From: Simplicispira metamorpha
GTDB lineage: Bacteria; Pseudomonadota; Gammaproteobacteria; Burkholderiales; Burkholderiaceae_C
Reading direction: 5' to 3'
Assembly (NCBI RefSeq): GCF_004341365.1
Contig: NZ_SLXH01000008.1
Span: 1-64,000 of the forward strand
Length of the DNA stretch: 64,000 bases
Numbering within the stretch: position 1 is the first letter of the stretch; the number at the start of each line of letters is the position of its first letter. The notes under the pieces are model-generated. The model was not told where the DNA came from, searched no databases, and saw only the letters and a program-made list of their open reading frames with translations. Below, piece by piece: positions 13,633 through 21,308 of the stretch. The translations under genes were made by a program, and so were the position numbers.

Positions 13633-15162
13633 ATGGCTCTTCCTGACCCCGCTACCACCCCCGCCGCAGCCACCCACGCCGCCTTGCCCCTGGACGCGCA
13701 AGGCATTCTGGAGCTGGCGGCGCGCTCCATGTTCCAGCTGTTTTCCAGCGTCAGCCAGGGCATGTTTCTGGTGGACCACAGTGGCCGCATCGTCTGGGTC
13801 AACGAGGGCTACCGGCGCTTTTTGCCCGACCTGGGCGTGGGCTCGGTCGAGCAGTTTCTGGGCCGCATGGTCGAAGAGGTGATTCCCAACACCCAGATGC
13901 GCAGCGTGCTCGACACCGGCAAACCCGTGTTGATTGACCTGCTCACCAACCAGGCGGGCACCTTTGTGGTCAGCCGCATTCCGCTGCGCGACGAGGCCCA
14001 GCAGGTCATTGGCGCCATCGGCATCGTGCTGTTTGACCACCCCGAAACCACGCTGCAACCCCTGATCAGCAAGTTTGCGCTGCTCCAGCGCGACCTGGAC
14101 GACGCCCGGCGCGAGCTGGCCGTGCAGCGCGGCCGCCAGATCAGCGGCGCCGGCAGCGGCGTGCGCCGGGCCAAATACACCTTTGCCAGCTTTGTCGGCT
14201 CCAGCCCCGCCGCCGCCGAGGTCAAGCGCCAGGCGCGCCGGGCGGCCCAGTCGTCCAGCCCGGTGCTGCTGCTGGGCGAGACGGGCACGGGCAAAGAGCT
14301 GCTGGCGCACGCCATCCACGCCACCTCGGCGCGCTCGGGCGGGCCGTTTGTCAGCGTCAACATTGCCGCCGTACCCGACACCTTGCTGGAGGCCGAGTTT
14401 TTTGGCGTGGCCCCCGGCGCCTACACCGGTGCCGACCGCAAAGGGCGCGATGGCAAATTCAAGCTGGCCGACGGCGGCACGCTGTTCCTCGACGAGATTG
14501 GCGATATGCCACCCAGCCTGCAAGCCAAGCTGCTGCGCGCGCTGCAAGAGGGCGAGATCGAGCCGCTGGGCTCCAACCAGCTGGTGCCGTTTGACGTGCG
14601 CGTGGTGGCGGCCACCTCGCGCGACCTGACCGCGCTGGTGCGCGAGGGCAAGTTCCGCGAGGACTTGTTCTACCGCCTGCATGTGCTGCCCCTGCGCGTG
14701 CCGCCCCTGCGCGAGCGGCGCAGCGACATCCCGGCGCTGGTCGAGGTGCTGGGCGAAGACCTGGCCCTGCGCAACGGCAGCGCCCCGCCCGAGCTGCTGC
14801 CCGACGCCCTGGCACTGCTGATGGCCCAGCCCTGGCGCGGCAACATCCGCGAGCTGCGCAACGTGCTGGAGCAGGCCGCCATGCGCAGCGACTCCGACAC
14901 CATCGACGCCGCCCAGCTCACCCGCATCCTGCGCGAAACGGGCGTAGAGCCCGCCGCCCCCGAGCCCGATGCGCCCGCGCTACAGCCCGGCGCGCAGGCC
15001 CAGGGCGATTTGCTGCGCCCCCTGGCCCAGCAGGTGGCCGAGCTGGAGCGCCGCGCCATCGCCGCCGCCCTGGCCGCCCACGGCGGCAACAAGCAGGCCA
15101 CTGCACGCCAGCTGGGCATATCACGCGCCACGCTGTACGCACGTATGGAAAACCCTGCGTAA
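13633..15162 (+). CDS. Sigma54-dependent transcriptional activator (PAS, AAA+, Fis-type HTH)
   Basis: A 509-residue bacterial enhancer-binding protein. Residues about 30-130 look like a PAS sensor (MFLVDHSGRIVWVNEGYRRF). Residues about 175-405 are the AAA+ domain, with Walker A GETGTGKE, the sigma54-contact loop GAYTGA (the usual F replaced by Y, a known natural variant), Walker B GGTLFLDEIGD and arginine-rich FREDLFYRLHVLPLRVPPLRER. The C terminus ends in a Fis-type helix-turn-helix (ATARQLGISRATLYARM). It binds upstream enhancers and uses ATP to open sigma54 promoters. The region just downstream has a textbook sigma54 promoter before the ABC transporter genes, so that operon is its likely target. 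The PAS ligand is unknown. Confidence 0.92.
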   Translation: MALPDPATTPAAATHAALPLDAQGILELAARSMFQLFSSVSQGMFLVDHSGRIVWVNEGYRRFLPDLGVGSVEQFLGRMVEEVIPNTQMRSVLDTGKPVLIDLLTNQAGTFVVSRIPLRDEAQQVIGAIGIVLFDHPETTLQPLISKFALLQRDLDDARRELAVQRGRQISGAGSGVRRAKYTFASFVGSSPAAAEVKRQARRAAQSSSPVLLLGETGTGKELLAHAIHATSARSGGPFVSVNIAAVPDTLLEAEFFGVAPGAYTGADRKGRDGKFKLADGGTLFLDEIGDMPPSLQAKLLRALQEGEIEPLGSNQLVPFDVRVVAATSRDLTALVREGKFREDLFYRLHVLPLRVPPLRERRSDIPALVEVLGEDLALRNGSAPPELLPDALALLMAQPWRGNIRELRNVLEQAAMRSDSDTIDAAQLTRILRETGVEPAAPEPDAPALQPGAQAQGDLLRPLAQQVAELERRAIAAALAAHGGNKQATARQLGISRATLYARMENPA

Positions 15163-15174
15163 AACTTGAACGGG

Positions 15175-15215
15175 TGTCTGCATGGCAGACAGTGGCGATG
15201 TCTGTTTTCTGGACA
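15175..15215 (+). promoter_or_regulatory. Two tandem 17-base palindromes, probable enhancer sites
   Basis: TGTCTG-N5-CAGACA (15175-15191) is a perfect palindrome. TGTCTG-N5-TGGACA (15199-15215) is a degenerate copy. Both share TGTC-N9-GACA and their centres are 24 bases apart. They lie roughly 120-145 bases upstream of the start expected from the sigma54 promoter at 15300-15315, the usual place for enhancer sites of sigma54 activators. Confidence 0.6.
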
Positions 15216-15242
15216 CATGGTGCGTTGATCGATCCAGAGGTT

Positions 15243-15259
15243 CATTGGTTTTTCCAATG
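15243..15259 (+). promoter_or_regulatory. Perfect 17-base palindrome CATTGG-N5-CCAATG
   Basis: CATTGG (15243-15248), ttttt, CCAATG (15254-15259). It has the same 6-5-6 geometry as the upstream palindromes but a different sequence. It may be a second regulator's operator or a structural element in the looped region between the enhancers and the promoter. Confidence 0.4.
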
Positions 15260-15260
15260 T

Positions 15261-15273
15261 AATCAATGGCTTG
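15261..15273 (+). promoter_or_regulatory. IHF consensus match between enhancers and sigma54 promoter
   Basis: aatcaatggcttg fits WATCARNNNNTTR at every defined position. IHF bends DNA to bring the activator to sigma54 polymerase, and this site lies between the palindromes and the -24/-12 promoter, as in well-studied sigma54 promoters. Confidence 0.55.
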
Positions 15274-15299
15274 TGCGATGTTCGGCAGGATTTTTGGGC

Positions 15300-15315
15300 T
15301 GGCACGGACTGTGCA
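15300..15315 (+). promoter_or_regulatory. Sigma54 (-24/-12) promoter of the ABC transporter operon
   Basis: TGGCACG-gact-GTGCA matches TGGCACG-N4-TTGCW with one mismatch (G for the first T). The invariant GG (15301-15302) and GC (15313-15314) are separated by exactly 10 bases. The expected start is near 15326, 21 bases before the ATG and upstream of the AGGAG ribosome site (15334-15338). Confidence 0.8.
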
Positions 15316-15346
15316 ATGTTCAGTCACCACCACAGGAGACACATCC

Positions 15347-16531
15347 ATGCAACGTCGCACATTGGTCGCACTGGCCGCTTTGGCCGCCACCGTTTCGGCA
15401 CCGGCCTTCGCCCAGTCGGGTGAAATCCGCATTGCCCACATCTACAGCAAGACTGGCCCGCTGGAGGCCTACGGCAAGCAGACGCAAACCGGCCTGATGA
15501 TGGGCCTGCAATACGCCACCGGCGGCACCATGCAGGTCAACGGCAAAAAAATCGTGGTCATCGAGAAAGACGACCAAGGCAAGCCCGACCTGGGCAAGAG
15601 CCTGCTGGCCACCGCCTACTCCGATGACAAGGCCGATCTGGCCGTGGGGCCGACGTCCTCGGGCGTGGCGCTGGCGCTGTTGCCGGTGGCCGAGGAGTAC
15701 AAGAAGATTTTGCTGGTCGAGCCCGCCGTGGCCGACTCGATTACCGGCGACAAGTGGAACAAATACATCTTCCGCACGGGCCGCAACAGCAGCCAGGACG
15801 CCATCAGCAACGCCGTGGCGCTGGACAAACCCGGCGTTCACATCGCCACGCTGGGCCAGGACTACGCTTTTGGCCGCGACGGCGTCAAGGCGTTCAAAGA
15901 GGCCATCAAGAAGGCCAAAATTGTCCACGAAGAGTATTTGCCCACCACCACCACCGACTTCACCGCCGGGGCGCAGCGCCTGATCGACAAGCTCAAGGAC
16001 TTGCCCGGGCGCAAGGTGATCTGGATTGTCTGGGCCGGGGCGGGCAACCCGTTCAAGATTGCCGACCTGGACTTGAAGCGCTACGGCATCGAGATTGCCA
16101 CCGGCGGCAACATCCTGCCGGCCATGGCCAGCTACAAAAACTTCCCCGGCATGGAAGGCGCCACCTACTACTACTTCGGCATTCCGAAGAACCCGGTCAA
16201 CGATGCGCTGGTGGCCGCGCACTACCAGCAGTTCAAGACGCCGCCCGACTTCTTCACGGCGGGCGGCTTTACCTCGGCCATGGCGCTGGTCACAGCCCTG
16301 AAAAAAACCGGCGGCGACACCAAAACCAACACGCTCATCAAGACCATGGAAGGCATGAGCTTTGACACGCCCAAGGGCACCATGACCTTCCGGCGCGAAG
16401 ACCACCAGGCCATGCAGAGCATGTACCACTTCAAGATCAAGGTGGACCCGGCCTTCAGCTGGGGTGTGCCCGAGCTGGTGCGCGAGATCAAGCCCGAAGA
16501 GATGAACATCCCGATCCGCAACGCGCGCTGA
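15347..16531 (+). CDS. ABC transporter substrate-binding protein, LivK-like
   Basis: A 394-residue periplasmic binding protein. ATG 15347 follows AGGAG by eight bases and exposes a clear signal peptide, MQRRTLVALAALAATVSAPA then FA-Q, with probable cleavage after residue 22. The mature protein has the type 1 periplasmic-binding fold of the Leu/Ile/Val family (IRIAHIYSKTGPLEAYGKQT, VGPTSSGVALALLPVAEEY, ATLGQDYAFGRDGVKAFKEA). It captures the ligand for the permeases encoded downstream. The family binds branched-chain amino acids but also amides, urea, aromatic acids and other organic acids. The linked alpha/beta hydrolase and sigma54 control argue against a housekeeping amino-acid role, so the ligand is left open. 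Confidence 0.92.
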   Translation: MQRRTLVALAALAATVSAPAFAQSGEIRIAHIYSKTGPLEAYGKQTQTGLMMGLQYATGGTMQVNGKKIVVIEKDDQGKPDLGKSLLATAYSDDKADLAVGPTSSGVALALLPVAEEYKKILLVEPAVADSITGDKWNKYIFRTGRNSSQDAISNAVALDKPGVHIATLGQDYAFGRDGVKAFKEAIKKAKIVHEEYLPTTTTDFTAGAQRLIDKLKDLPGRKVIWIVWAGAGNPFKIADLDLKRYGIEIATGGNILPAMASYKNFPGMEGATYYYFGIPKNPVNDALVAAHYQQFKTPPDFFTAGGFTSAMALVTALKKTGGDTKTNTLIKTMEGMSFDTPKGTMTFRREDHQAMQSMYHFKIKVDPAFSWGVPELVREIKPEEMNIPIRNAR

Positions 16532-16546
16532 GGCGGCGGCTACCCC

Positions 16547-17311
16547 ATGCTTGCAACCCAGGACCTGACCATCCGCTTTGGCGGCCACGTGGCGGTGAAT
16601 GCCGTGAGCTGCGCTTTTGCGCCGGGCACGCTCACCGCCATCGTTGGCCCCAACGGCGCGGGCAAGACCACGTACTTCAACCTGATCTCGGGCCAGCTCA
16701 AGGCCAGCGCTGGCTCGGTGCGGCTGGGCGGGCGCGAGCTGACGGGGCTATCGGCATCGGCGCGCACCCGGGCAGGGCTGGGGCGGGCGTTTCAGCTCAC
16801 CAACCTGTTCCCCAACCTGAGCGTGCTGGAGAACGTGCGCCTGGCCGTGCAGGCCACGCAAGCGGGCAAACACCACCGTGGCCTGAACCTGTGGAGCATC
16901 TGGAGCGACCACCGCCAGCTCACCGAGCGGGCAGAAGAAATCCTGCACGCCGTGGCCATGCAAGAGCGGCGCGACACCCCCGTGGCCAGCTTGCCCCATG
17001 GCGACCAGCGCAAGCTGGAAGTGGCCCTCTTGATGGCGCTGGAGCCGCAGGTCTATATGTTTGATGAACCCACCGCCGGCATGAGCCACGACGAGGCGCC
17101 CGTGATCCTGAACCTGATCCGCGCGCTGAAACAAGACAAAAGCAAAACCATCTTGCTGGTCGAGCACAAGATGGACGTGGTGCGCGAGCTGGCCGACCGC
17201 ATCATCGTGCTGACCAACGGCACGCTGGTGGCCGATGGCGCGCCCGCTGAGGTGATTGCCTCGCCCGTGGTGCAAGAGGCTTATCTGGGCGTGGCCAAGG
17301 AGGCCGCATGA
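16547..17311 (+). CDS. ABC transporter ATP-binding protein, LivG-type
   Basis: A 254-residue cytoplasmic ATPase starting 15 bases after the binding-protein gene. Walker A is GPNGAGKTT (residues 34-42), the Q-loop region is FQLTNLFPNLSVLENVRL, Walker B is VYMFDEPTAG, and the H-loop is in LLVEHKMDVV. The signature is LPHGDQRKLEVA rather than LSGGQ, within the range seen in LivG proteins. It pairs with the LivF-type ATPase whose gene overlaps its stop by four bases (ATGA), so the two are translationally coupled. Confidence 0.93.
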   Translation: MLATQDLTIRFGGHVAVNAVSCAFAPGTLTAIVGPNGAGKTTYFNLISGQLKASAGSVRLGGRELTGLSASARTRAGLGRAFQLTNLFPNLSVLENVRLAVQATQAGKHHRGLNLWSIWSDHRQLTERAEEILHAVAMQERRDTPVASLPHGDQRKLEVALLMALEPQVYMFDEPTAGMSHDEAPVILNLIRALKQDKSKTILLVEHKMDVVRELADRIIVLTNGTLVADGAPAEVIASPVVQEAYLGVAKEAA

Positions 17312-18102
17312 GCATCGCTGTCATGACCGCCACTGGTGCGCCGCAGCGGGCTGTGGGGCCAGCGCAGCCCGTGGCCAGTGCGCAACCCTTGCTGCAATTG
17401 CAGGGCGTACACACGCACATTGGCGCATACCACATCCTGCACGGCGTGGATTTGGCCGTGCCCCAGGGCGAGCTGACCATGCTGCTGGGCCGCAACGGCG
17501 CGGGCAAGACCACCACGCTGCGCACCATCATGGGCCTGTGGCAGGCATCGCAGGGCCGCATCACCTTTGCCGGGCGCGACATCACGCGGCTGCACACGCC
17601 GCACATCGCCCACCTGAACATTGCCTACGTGCCCGAGAACATGGGCATCTTTGCCGACCTGACGGTGAAAGAAAACATGCTGCTGGCCGCCCGCCAGGCG
17701 CGCAATGTGGCGCAGATGGATACGGCGCGGCTGGAATGGATTTTCAAGCTGTTCCCGGCGGTAGAGAAGTTCTGGAACCACCCGGCGGGCAAGCTCAGTG
17801 GCGGGCAAAAGCAGATGCTGGCCGTGAGCCGCGCCATCGTCGAGCCGCGCGACCTGCTCATCATCGACGAGCCCAGCAAGGGCCTGGCGCCGGTGATGGT
17901 CAACAACATGATCGACGCCTTTGGCCAGCTCAAGAAAAGCGGCGTCACGCTGCTGCTGGTGGAGCAGAACATCCACTTTGCCAAGCAGCTGGGCGACAGC
18001 GTGGCCGTGATGGACAACGGCCGCGTGGTACACGCCGGCAGCATGGCCGCGCTGGCGCAGGACGAGGCCTTGCAGCGCCAGCTACTGGGGTTGGCACTGT
18101 GA
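17308..18102 (+). CDS. ABC transporter ATP-binding protein, LivF-type
   Basis: A 264-residue ATPase whose ATG overlaps the preceding TGA. Walker A is GRNGAGKTT, the signature LSGGQKQML is canonical, Walker B is LLIIDEPSKGLAP and the switch His is in LLLVEQNIHFA. The first 30 residues before the ABC domain (MTATGAPQRAVGPAQPVAS) are a low-complexity extension absent from typical LivF proteins of about 235 residues. It forms the heterodimeric motor with the LivG-type protein. A dispersed repeat copy separates it from the permease genes. Confidence 0.93.
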   Translation: MSIAVMTATGAPQRAVGPAQPVASAQPLLQLQGVHTHIGAYHILHGVDLAVPQGELTMLLGRNGAGKTTTLRTIMGLWQASQGRITFAGRDITRLHTPHIAHLNIAYVPENMGIFADLTVKENMLLAARQARNVAQMDTARLEWIFKLFPAVEKFWNHPAGKLSGGQKQMLAVSRAIVEPRDLLIIDEPSKGLAPVMVNNMIDAFGQLKKSGVTLLLVEQNIHFAKQLGDSVAVMDNGRVVHAGSMAALAQDEALQRQLLGLAL

Positions 18103-18211: not shown

Positions 18212-19195
18212 ATGAGCACCCGCGATCTGGACTGGAAGCCGCTGGCGCTGGTGCCGCTGCTATCGCTCATCGTGCTGCCCTTCATCGGCTCGCCCAGCAC
18301 CTGGCTGACGCTGACGGTGGCGGGGCTGGCCATGGGCATGATCATTTTCATCATCGCCTCGGGGCTGACGCTGGTGTTCGGGCTGATGGACGTGCTCAAC
18401 TTTGGCCACGGCGTGTTCATTGCGCTGGGCGCGTTTGTGGCCACCAGCGTGCTGGGCGCCATGGGCGACTGGACACAGAGCGCGCAGCTGTGGCGCAACC
18501 TGGTGGCGGTGCTGCCCGCCATGCTGGTGGCCATGGCGGTGGCGGGCGCCGTGGGCCTGGCGTTCGAGCGCTTTATCGTGCGGCCTGTGTACGGCCAGCA
18601 CTTGAAGCAAATCCTCATCACCATGGGCGGCATGATCATTGGCGAGGAGCTGATCAAGGTGATCTGGGGGCCGCAGCAAATCCCGCTGCCACTGCCCGAG
18701 GGCATGCGCGGCGCCGTACTGGTGGGCGACGCTGCCATCGAGAAATACCGCCTGGTGGCAGTGGCAGTGGGCCTGCTGGTGTTTGGCGTGCTGGCCTATG
18801 TGCTCTCGCGCACCAAGGTGGGCCTGCTGATCCGCGCCGGCGTGCAAGACCGCGAGATGGTCGAAAGCCTGGGCTACCGCATCCGGCGGCTGTTTGTGGG
18901 CGTGTTTGTGGTGGGCAGTGCGCTGGCGGGCCTGGGCGGCGTGATGTGGGGGCTGTACCAGCAAAACGTGGTGCCGCAAATGGGCGCGCAGGTCAACGTG
19001 CTGATCTTTATCGTCATCATCATCGGCGGGCTGGGCAGCACGGGCGGGGCGCTGATTGGTGCGCTCTTGGTGGGGCTGATGGCCAACTACACCGGCTTTT
19101 TGCTGCCCAAAGTGGCGCTGTTTTCCAACATTGCGCTGATGGTGGCCATCTTGCTGTGGCGCCCGCAGGGCATCTATCCGGTGGCCAACCGCTGA
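18212..19195 (+). CDS. Branched-chain amino acid-type ABC permease, LivH-type
   Basis: A 327-residue inner-membrane permease. ATG 18212 is preceded by GAGAGGA (18197-18203) at eight bases; an earlier in-frame start would run into the dispersed repeat. Multiple hydrophobic segments are evident (LALVPLLSLIVLPFIG, MIIFIIASGLTLVFGLMDVL). The NFGHGVFIALGAF motif and the C-terminal GLGSTGGALIGALLVGLMANY are characteristic of LivH/BPD_transp_2 proteins. It forms the translocation pore with the LivM-type protein. Slightly longer than typical LivH (about 290-310). Confidence 0.93.
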   Translation: MSTRDLDWKPLALVPLLSLIVLPFIGSPSTWLTLTVAGLAMGMIIFIIASGLTLVFGLMDVLNFGHGVFIALGAFVATSVLGAMGDWTQSAQLWRNLVAVLPAMLVAMAVAGAVGLAFERFIVRPVYGQHLKQILITMGGMIIGEELIKVIWGPQQIPLPLPEGMRGAVLVGDAAIEKYRLVAVAVGLLVFGVLAYVLSRTKVGLLIRAGVQDREMVESLGYRIRRLFVGVFVVGSALAGLGGVMWGLYQQNVVPQMGAQVNVLIFIVIIIGGLGSTGGALIGALLVGLMANYTGFLLPKVALFSNIALMVAILLWRPQGIYPVANR

Positions 19196-19208
19196 ACAGG
19201 AGCCTGAC

Positions 19209-20282
19209 ATGCTGAACCGACTCCTCTCGGGCGACTACCCGCGCAGCAAGCTGCTGGCGGCGGTGTTGCTGGCGATTTTTTTCGCTCTGGCGCTGGCGCC
19301 GTTTCTGTTTCCGGGCGTCAAGGCGCTGTCGGTGGCGGCCAAGGTGCTGATTTTTGTGGTGCTGGTGGCCAGCTTCGATTTGCTGCTGGGCTATACCGGC
19401 ATCGTCAGCTTTGCGCACACCATGTTTTTTGGCATTGGCGCCTATGGCATTGCCGTGGCCACCACGCGCCTGGGGCCAACCTGGACGGCGCTGGGCGTGG
19501 GCCTGGGTGGGGCGCTGCTCTTGTCGCTGCTGCTGTCGCTGGCGGTGGGGCTGTTCTCGCTGCGGGTGCGGGCCATCTTTTTTGCCATGATCACGCTGGC
19601 CGTGGCCTCGGCGTTCCAGACGCTGGCCTCGCAGCTGTCGGACATCACCGGCGGCGAGGACGGCCTGACCTTCAAGGTGCCCGCCGTCTTGTCGCCCAGC
19701 TTTGAGCCGTTTGACGAGCCGTTTCTGGGCGTGGCCATCGATGGGCGGCTGATCTGCTACTACCTGCTGTTTGTGCTGGCCGTGGCGCTGGTGCTGGCGC
19801 TGCTGCGCATCGTCAACTCGCCCTTTGGCCGGGTGCTGCAAGCCATCCGCGAGAACGAGTTCCGCGCCGAGGCCATCGGCTACCGCGTGGTGGTGTACCG
19901 CACCACATCCAGCGTGCTGTCGGCGCTGTTTGCCACCATGGCCGGGGCCATGCTGGCGCTGTGGCTGCGCTACAACGGGCCGGACACCTCGCTCAGCTTT
20001 GAAATCATGATGGACTGCCTGCTCATCGTGGTCATTGGCGGCATGGGCACCATATACGGATCGGTCATTGGTGCGGTGCTGTTTCTGGTAGCGCAAAGCT
20101 ATTTGCAGGATTTGCTGCGGCTGGGCAGCGAGGCGGCGGCCAGCCTGCCGTGGCTGTCGGCGCTGCTCTCGCCCGACCGCTGGCTGCTGTGGCTGGGCGT
20201 ACTGTTTGTTCTCTCGGTGTACTACTTTCCCACCGGCGTGGTGGGGCGCTTGCGCATGGGGGCGCTGCGCCGGGCGGGTTGA
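19209..20282 (+). CDS. Branched-chain amino acid-type ABC permease, LivM-type
   Basis: A 357-residue permease 13 bases after the LivH-type gene, with an AGGAG ribosome site just before ATG 19209. About eight to ten hydrophobic helices are visible. Family motifs include DLLLGYTGIVSFAHTMFFGI, LRVRAIFFAMITLAVASAFQ, ITGGEDGL and VIGGMGTIYGSVIGAVLFLV. It is the second membrane half of the transporter. An alpha/beta hydrolase gene follows at a distance of 114 bases on the same strand. Confidence 0.93.
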   Translation: MLNRLLSGDYPRSKLLAAVLLAIFFALALAPFLFPGVKALSVAAKVLIFVVLVASFDLLLGYTGIVSFAHTMFFGIGAYGIAVATTRLGPTWTALGVGLGGALLLSLLLSLAVGLFSLRVRAIFFAMITLAVASAFQTLASQLSDITGGEDGLTFKVPAVLSPSFEPFDEPFLGVAIDGRLICYYLLFVLAVALVLALLRIVNSPFGRVLQAIRENEFRAEAIGYRVVVYRTTSSVLSALFATMAGAMLALWLRYNGPDTSLSFEIMMDCLLIVVIGGMGTIYGSVIGAVLFLVAQSYLQDLLRLGSEAAASLPWLSALLSPDRWLLWLGVLFVLSVYYFPTGVVGRLRMGALRRAG

Positions 20283-20396: not shown

Positions 20397-21308
20397 ATGT
20401 CTCCTGCATCGCGCTATATCACCTGCGCTGGCTACGAAATCCATGTCACCGAATGGGGCGCGCCCGACGCTCCGGCGGTGATTGCCTGGCACGGCCTGGC
20501 GCGCACTGGGCGCGATATGGACGAGCTGGCCGCGCACCTGGCCGCGCAGGGCTGGCGCGTGGTGTGCCCCGACACCCTGGGCCGGGGCCTGAGCCAGTGG
20601 GGCCGCGATCCGCTGCACGAATACTGCCTGCGCTTTTACGCCCGCCTGGCCGCTGACTTGTTCGATCAGCTGGGCATTGCGAGCGCGCACTGGGTGGGCA
20701 CCTCCATGGGCGGCGCCATTGGCACCGTGTGCGCCTCGGGCCTGTTTGCGCCGCAGCTCAAGGGCCGCATCCAGAGCCTGGTGCTCAACGACAACGCGCC
20801 CGAGCTGTCGGCACTGGCGCTGGAGCGCATCAAGGCCTATGCGGGCCAGCCCCCGGCCTTTGATACCGTGACCGAGCTGGAAGCATTTTTTCGCCAGGTG
20901 TACCGGCCCTACGGCTGGCTCAGCGATGCGCAGTGGCGCCGCCTGACCGAAACCTCCACCCGGCGCTTGGGCGATGGCCGCGTCACGCCGCACTACGACC
21001 CGGCCATGGTGCAGCAGTTCACGCACCACGCAGACGATTACCTGATTTGGGAGCACTACGACGCCCTCGACATCCCCGTGCTGTGCCTGCGCGGTGCCGA
21101 GTCCGATCTGGTGCTGCCCGATACCGTGGCCGCCATGCACCAGCGCGGCCCCGGCGCGCGCGGCCTGCTGCAAGTGATCGAGGTGCCCGGCTGCGGCCAC
21201 GCCCCCGCGCTGAACGTGCCCGAGCAGCTGGCCTGGGTGGCGGGGTTTTTGCAGCGCAGCGCAGCGCCGGGTGAGGGTGGGGGATGCGGCTCTTTGCTAC
21301 TAAAATAA
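20397..21308 (+). CDS. Alpha/beta hydrolase
   Basis: A 303-residue protein. ATG 20397 has AAGGGG (20384-20389) at seven bases. The oxyanion motif WHGLARTG is near residue 32. The nucleophile elbow is GTSMGGAIG (Ser about 103), the acid is probably in RGAESDLVLPD, and the catalytic His is in VPGCGHAPALN, so the triad looks complete. No signal peptide, so cytoplasmic. Its position directly after the LivHM-type permeases suggests that it hydrolyses the imported compound, for example an ester, lactone or amide, but the substrate cannot be read from the sequence. The last residues (GEGGGCGSLLLK) run into repeat-like sequence and are probably not conserved. Confidence 0.9.
   Translation: MSPASRYITCAGYEIHVTEWGAPDAPAVIAWHGLARTGRDMDELAAHLAAQGWRVVCPDTLGRGLSQWGRDPLHEYCLRFYARLAADLFDQLGIASAHWVGTSMGGAIGTVCASGLFAPQLKGRIQSLVLNDNAPELSALALERIKAYAGQPPAFDTVTELEAFFRQVYRPYGWLSDAQWRRLTETSTRRLGDGRVTPHYDPAMVQQFTHHADDYLIWEHYDALDIPVLCLRGAESDLVLPDTVAAMHQRGPGARGLLQVIEVPGCGHAPALNVPEQLAWVAGFLQRSAAPGEGGGCGSLLLK

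Follow-up and report, generated by a model that had tools for sequence, protein, structure and literature searches.

A very probable sigma54-dependent control region between an activator gene and an ABC-importer operon of Simplicispira metamorpha

In the 64,000-nucleotide stretch of Simplicispira metamorpha DNA analysed here (contig NZ_SLXH01000008.1, positions 1 to 64,000; hereafter the window), a gene for a sigma54 activator is followed by genes for an ATP-binding cassette (ABC) importer, and the question is what the DNA between them does. A sequence-only reading had described it as a complete sigma54 control region. Comparison of sequences makes it highly probable that the ABC-importer operon beginning at 15347 has its sigma54-dependent control region at positions 15164-15326, run by the adjacent activator as proposed. 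The switch is very probably real and of a known, ordinary kind, and it is kept in many related species. Its parts, including two candidate upstream activator sequences (UAS) and a core for integration host factor (IHF), are as follows.

13633-15162, + strand: gene for a sigma54 activator of PAS-AAA+-Fis type, 509 amino acids (Pfam domain matches)
15156-15172, no strand: putative decayed third activator site over the activator stop codon (centre 15164, weight-matrix score 0.3)
15175-15191, no strand: UAS1, candidate activator palindrome TGTCTGCATGGCAGACA, perfect 7+3+7 (matrix score 11.8)
15199-15215, no strand: UAS2, candidate activator palindrome TGTCTGTTTTCTGGACA (matrix score 13.5)
15261-15273, + strand: IHF core WATCAANNNNTTR, exact match
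15300-15315, + strand: predicted sigma54 -24/-12 promoter TGGCACGGACTGTGCA, 11/12 consensus positions, GG-N10-GC
15326, + strand: predicted transcription start, from its spacing to -12

Most of what the sequence-only reading had listed is found in the DNA. The activator frame, said to lie directly upstream, stops 12 bp short of UAS1. The two TGTC-N9-GACA palindromes are both present, and as a tandem the pattern occurs once in the 64 kb, in none of 100 dinucleotide shuffles and in none of 20,000 letter shuffles of 15163-15346. By itself, TGTC-N9-GACA is no rarity: the window has 2 against 0.60 expected, and 15 shuffles reach 2. The -24/-12 element at 15300, for which exact GG-N10-GC spacing had been claimed, is the sole exact match among 9 in the window at up to one mismatch, against 7.65 expected, and an exact promoter appears in none of the 20,000 letter shuffles; it agrees with the consensus TGGCACG-N4-TTGCW with GG-N10-GC at 11/12 positions. 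The full IHF consensus match is likewise exact (AATCAATGGCTTG at 15261-15273); such cores number 3 in the window against 0.53 expected, and 29 of the 20,000 shuffles contain one. The claimed third palindrome fared differently. The inverted repeat CATTGGTTTTTCCAATG at 15243-15259 exists, but at least one repeat of this kind arises in about 13% of shuffles of 15175-15315, and no counterpart was seen among the relatives' promoters displayed; judged by its sequence, it looks like chance and lies outside the enhancer array. Chance is ruled out for the tandem array and promoter, though not for every detail, because single palindromes are common and a repeat like the third is found in those 13% of shuffles. 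As would be expected for an enhancer-binding protein, the sequence upstream of -24 contains dyad-symmetric tandem sites.

The same genome encodes the proteins that the predicted promoter would need. RpoN is represented by one PF04552 gene (E 7.6e-64). IHF alpha and beta are above the cut-off for NF001401 and NF001222 and below it for TIGR00987 and TIGR00988, and an HU-like protein is also encoded.

A comparison among relatives had been suggested as a check, and it shows that the control region is conserved. Among 125 activator loci, 3 had no match for the activator C-terminus and 88 had a binding-protein gene in the fetched stretch; 80 adjacent loci were analysed, in which that gene lies within 450 bp and the promoter score is at least 9. 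In 79 of the 80 the two-site palindrome score is reached by at most 5% of each promoter's own 60 shuffles, and the exception is locus L211. A palindromic weight matrix trained without the window gives the family consensus TGTCTGAAATTCAGACA and still detects UAS1 and UAS2. This matrix was trained mainly on AT-rich sites and favours AT-rich centres. At a looser threshold three sites are found in 64 of the 80 loci, and, measured upstream from the -24 T, site centres are commonest at 60, 84 and 103 bp; at a stricter one, 61 of the 78 adjacent promoters with a site have the proximal one at 57-61 bp. In the window, UAS1 and UAS2 are centred 117 and 93 bp above the -24 T, so the usual 24-bp spacing is kept and the pair is moved 33 bp away. 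The decayed site sits where the relatives predict one and scores 0.3, whereas the 11 positions scored around it give -20 to -41. On this sequence evidence, the usual array is made up of three putative palindromes, of which the window retains two plus a decayed third.

Of 149 promoters, 67 have an IHF core, with no more than one mismatch, in the 60 bp above -24, compared with 2.4% of letter shuffles. The usual start of the core, shared by 49 of the 67, is exactly 18 bp above the -24 T; the window core starts 39 bp above it.

The sites and the promoter also follow the activator from genome to genome. After removal of one identical promoter, 166 distinct binding-protein promoters, taken from part of the 158 genomes that have the binding-protein gene, were compared, 154 with an activator in the genome and 12 without. 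At least one palindrome site is present in 139 of the 154 and in 0 of the 12; for the -24/-12 element, 140 of the 154 and again 0 of the 12 match at 10/12 positions or more. One promoter, L261, has both the site and the promoter match, and its genome holds a diverged activator with 62% identity to that of the window across residues 137-505. It was counted with the activator genomes; counted as activator-less, it would change the figures to 138/153 and 139/153 against 1/13 and 1/13. Two activator-less promoters, L245 and L259, reach promoter score 9, a value that 54 of 830 shuffles equal or exceed. For 33 promoters the activator gene is not adjacent; it may be as near as about 0.7 kb, or in a remote part of the chromosome or on a different contig (L222, L228 and L230 are examples). 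Directly before the transporter, a site is found in 28 of these promoters and a promoter match of at least 10 in 29. Because the control region is kept at most of these separated transporters, it is the transporter that it accompanies and not the 3' end of the activator gene.

At the level of gene content, 145 of 299 family genomes hold both genes, 7 the activator alone, 13 the binding protein alone and 134 neither (Fisher p 1.6e-59, uncorrected for kinship). One of the 13 binding-protein-only genomes, G182, has a diverged activator. In a chosen set of genomes, 25 of the 26 that have the activator also have the binding-protein gene, as does 1 of the 30 that lack it. Activator, sites and promoter are present, positioned, conserved and inherited together across these genomes.

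Several observations weigh against this account of the region. UAS1 and UAS2 score below the best site of most relatives, and another match in the window, at 74-94, scores 14.5, above both. No IHF core at up to one mismatch is found in 82 of the 149 promoters, and because of these IHF assistance looks common, not universal. Fifteen of the 154 promoters from activator genomes lack a site at the threshold used. Fourteen of them belong to a distant group, in which the activators share about 59-65% identity with that of the window; the motif may have drifted there, or the AT-trained matrix may fail, and L013 has a perfect TGTCTG-N5-CAGACA yet no matrix site. In the remaining promoter, L137, the GG of the -24 element is gone and the promoter was misplaced as a result; the automatic -24 choice may be wrong in a few promoters (L137, L167). 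Finally, the counts take related genomes as independent. A second off-array match in the window lies at 2091-2111 (score 10.4).

The predicted circuit is supported because the control region is conserved, stays with a separated transporter (28 of 33 loci) and is absent from the activator-less promoters (12 of 12). In addition, neither a sigma70-like promoter nor a terminator was found within 15100-15400. The part of the prediction that did not stand is the composition of the array, which usually has three sites. We infer activator binding, activation, the start site and the operon extent, and the circuit would run as follows. The PAS domain of the activator (13633-15162) would sense a signal, and the activator would then assemble on the tandem palindromes of consensus TGTCTGAAATTCAGACA. 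IHF would bend the DNA at 15261-15273, and the activator would contact RpoN-polymerase at 15300-15315 and use ATP to drive promoter opening, with transcription starting near 15326.

One element had been omitted from the sequence-only feature list, whose array, IHF core and promoter were otherwise located.

15310-15326, no strand: UAS-like palindrome TGTGCAATGTTCAGTCA, over the -12 element and the predicted start (matrix score 9.0)

The left half of this 17-bp palindrome is the -12 element and its end is the predicted +1, so that it spans about -16 to +1; the matrix match, 15308-15328, is centred 18 bp below the -24 T. It can be tentatively hypothesized that the circuit described above includes a brake, in which this palindrome acts as a governor, binding the activator with low affinity and blocking RpoN-polymerase once much active activator is present. 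A score of at least 5 at this offset is found in 16 of the 149 promoters (the window and 15 others) from 8 genera, compared with 0.14% expected if the -24/-12 element is left intact and the 30 bases behind it are shuffled, and the remaining offsets between 10 and 44 give 2 such matches in total. Of the 27 occurrences of the right half-site CAGNCA, 18 start at this offset, with G, T or C as the free letter. There is also a precedent in the available part of an account of NtrC at glnAp2, where a tandem enhancer is accompanied by proposed low-affinity sites that limit activation, the governor sites (PMC3870243). These points are offset by others. The start-overlapping palindrome is lacking from 133 of the 149 promoters, the 5' leaders are kin by descent, which could explain part of the pattern, and the left half is already supplied by the -12 element itself. 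The precedent differs as well, in that NtrC is a two-component response regulator and the governor sites at glnAp2 are not described, in that part of the account, as overlapping -12/+1 (PMC3870243). It is possible, although doubtful, that the activator is self-limiting here, opening the promoter and shutting it at a high level, in an arrangement kept in eight genera of the family. This would make the locus a candidate case of an enhancer protein braking its own promoter.

It is very improbable that the palindromes belong to another regulator and that the adjacent activator acts elsewhere. The scan of the genome for further tandem arrays covered one spacing only, which leaves this explanation some room. 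At up to three mismatches that scan found 8 forward and 9 reverse places, against 3 and 2 for a reversed-pattern control, and the window place alone has as few as one mismatch. A looser single-site search of the genome found at least 86 places per strand against 51 for the control, and a tandem search of 120 family genomes returned, among the matches listed, mostly GC-rich look-alikes; none of these places is put forward as a second target. Against another regulator, the sites follow the activator (139/154 against 0/12), and their dyad symmetry, repetition and distance suit an activator of the Fis type. Less credible still is a chance assembly, with the activator's own transcript as the operon's sole source of expression. 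The absence of a recognisable terminator between the activator and the transporter genes would suit it, but shuffle tests, conservation and co-inheritance contradict it, and separated loci retain the control region.

The adjacent activator, with the control region run as proposed above, resembles known enhancer-binding proteins. Pfam places a PAS domain (PF08448) at residues 37-132, PF00158 at 188-354 and PF02954 at 468-506; the last two are above their cut-offs, as in bacterial enhancer-binding proteins, and no receiver domain was matched in the Pfam domain scan. Its Walker A motif is GETGTGKE and its sigma54-contact loop is GAYTGA, a Y-for-F variant of GAFTGA. Such variants are known to work. 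Five NCBIfam labels were rejected, all with scores below their cut-offs: PrdR (333.6 against 795), NifA (315.5 against 528.85), NorR (313.9 against 476), NtrC (289.8 against 558.6) and PrpR (287.2 against 499.2). Relatives of the activator are found in 152 of the 299 family genomes (E<=1e-130). Matches with names include Delftia, Polaromonas, Ramlibacter and Curvibacter, which makes Comamonadaceae the likeliest origin of the window. With the present analysis this protein gains a probable target operon, a candidate binding motif (usually in three copies) and a start-site prediction. A tree of 41 activators places the window protein in a 16-row clade (100/97), while Pseudomonas and Paraburkholderia proteins form another clade (100/100), apart from it; L015, which has a binding-protein gene next door, falls outside the 16-row clade at a place the tree does not resolve.

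The Pseudomonas relatives that were fetched are 47-48% identical over residues 21-505, and from their gene content we take their loci to be the HbcR locus, an assignment we infer. HbcR (PA2005) has the same PAS-AAA+-Fis architecture, and in the HbcR-type Pseudomonas loci the activator also lies directly upstream of a neighbouring operon with a sigma54-like promoter. After the activator stop (L017-L020), GTCT/AGAC half-sites are visible by eye, although in GTCTC-N6-GAGAC-like repeats with half-sites one base wider apart (again by eye). The neighbours differ, consisting of a 463-amino-acid protein, 3-hydroxybutyrate dehydrogenase and acetoacetate-coenzyme A (CoA) ligase, with no ABC importer. 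Ten neighbour proteins of relatives were scanned against Pfam and six against NCBIfam, and the 463-amino-acid protein, which we take to be a permease, had no family match there. A relative of it, 71% identical, adjoins the Paraburkholderia activator. A tblastn search of the window with the Pseudomonas neighbour proteins gave no match at 1e-30. The window activator lies outside the clade of the HbcR loci, and the tree does not place it among them. By sequence, it is akin to HbcR-type activators and appears separate from them.

HbcR responds to (R)-3-hydroxybutyrate, according to the accessible portion of its description (PMC10482368). The activator relative at L021 adjoins a tripartite ATP-independent periplasmic (TRAP) transporter and a CoA-transferase. 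By analogy, a reasonable but weak guess for inducer and cargo in the window is a short-chain organic acid, the inducer being perhaps something like 3-hydroxybutyrate, because relatives adjoin 3-hydroxybutyrate genes or TRAP and CoA-transferase genes and HbcR responds to that compound.

Three tandem palindromes per promoter, as in the usual array of this family, are also reported for GcsR of Pseudomonas aeruginosa, with three 18-bp palindromic sites above its target operon seen by gel shift, in the excerpt at hand (PMC4894688). GcsR differs in being TyrR-like and glycine-responsive, with the consensus TGTAACG-N4-CGTTCCG in the same excerpt. Desulfovibrio activators have TGT/ACA-type enhancer motifs with an 11-bp gap, and in the sections available their genes are often co-localised with the promoter served and their regulons are small (PMC4641369); as presented there, they are other proteins with other targets, and the likeness of motif does not imply kinship. 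The searches made of open-licence PMC papers listed nothing that describes the activator, its motif or the circuit.

Downstream of the promoter, the transporter genes claimed earlier are confirmed by Pfam as binding protein, ATPases and permeases, with the first ATG at 15347 preceded by AGGAG as read from the sequence.

15347-16531, + strand: periplasmic binding protein of the ABC importer (PF13458)
16547-18102, + strand: two ABC ATPases, LivG- and LivF-like (PF00005)
18212-20282, + strand: two permeases, LivH- and LivM-like (PF02653)
20397-21308, + strand: alpha/beta hydrolase, probably the last gene of the predicted operon (PF00561)

The binding protein, two ATPases and two permeases make up an importer of the branched-chain-amino-acid type. 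The relatives of the binding protein in the PDB, 3n0x and 3nnd, are annotated merely as "possible substrate binding protein", and a search for these two codes gave nothing pertinent among open-licence PMC papers.

The whole array is displaced in several promoters, by about -11 bp in L165, +21 in L133, +24 in L187, +33 in L191, +34 in L167, +41 in L105 and +33 in the window. The shifts in 8 genera cluster modulo a helical turn with p 0.03 (10.5 bp), 0.019 (11.0 bp) and 0.10 (10.0 bp), and with 4 genera of a second architecture added the values become 0.007, 0.002 and 0.03. Helical phasing of these shifts is suggestive only, because they were hand-picked, the result depends on the period, and the rest of the distant group was omitted, in which the proximal site can lie anywhere between about 96 and 169 bp. 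Shifts from -11 to +41 bp nevertheless offer a natural enhancer-promoter spacing series for the study of DNA looping.

Variants of the locus were also seen. The binding-protein gene stands in two tandem copies behind the activator at G003:C1:216723-219259 and at G181:C1:1363500-1366096, and in G181 (L137) the lost -24 GG is that before the first copy. At G183:C22:12170-13636, beside L160, the activator relative has one internal stop, which is either a decayed gene or an assembly error, and the enhancer and promoter there score well.
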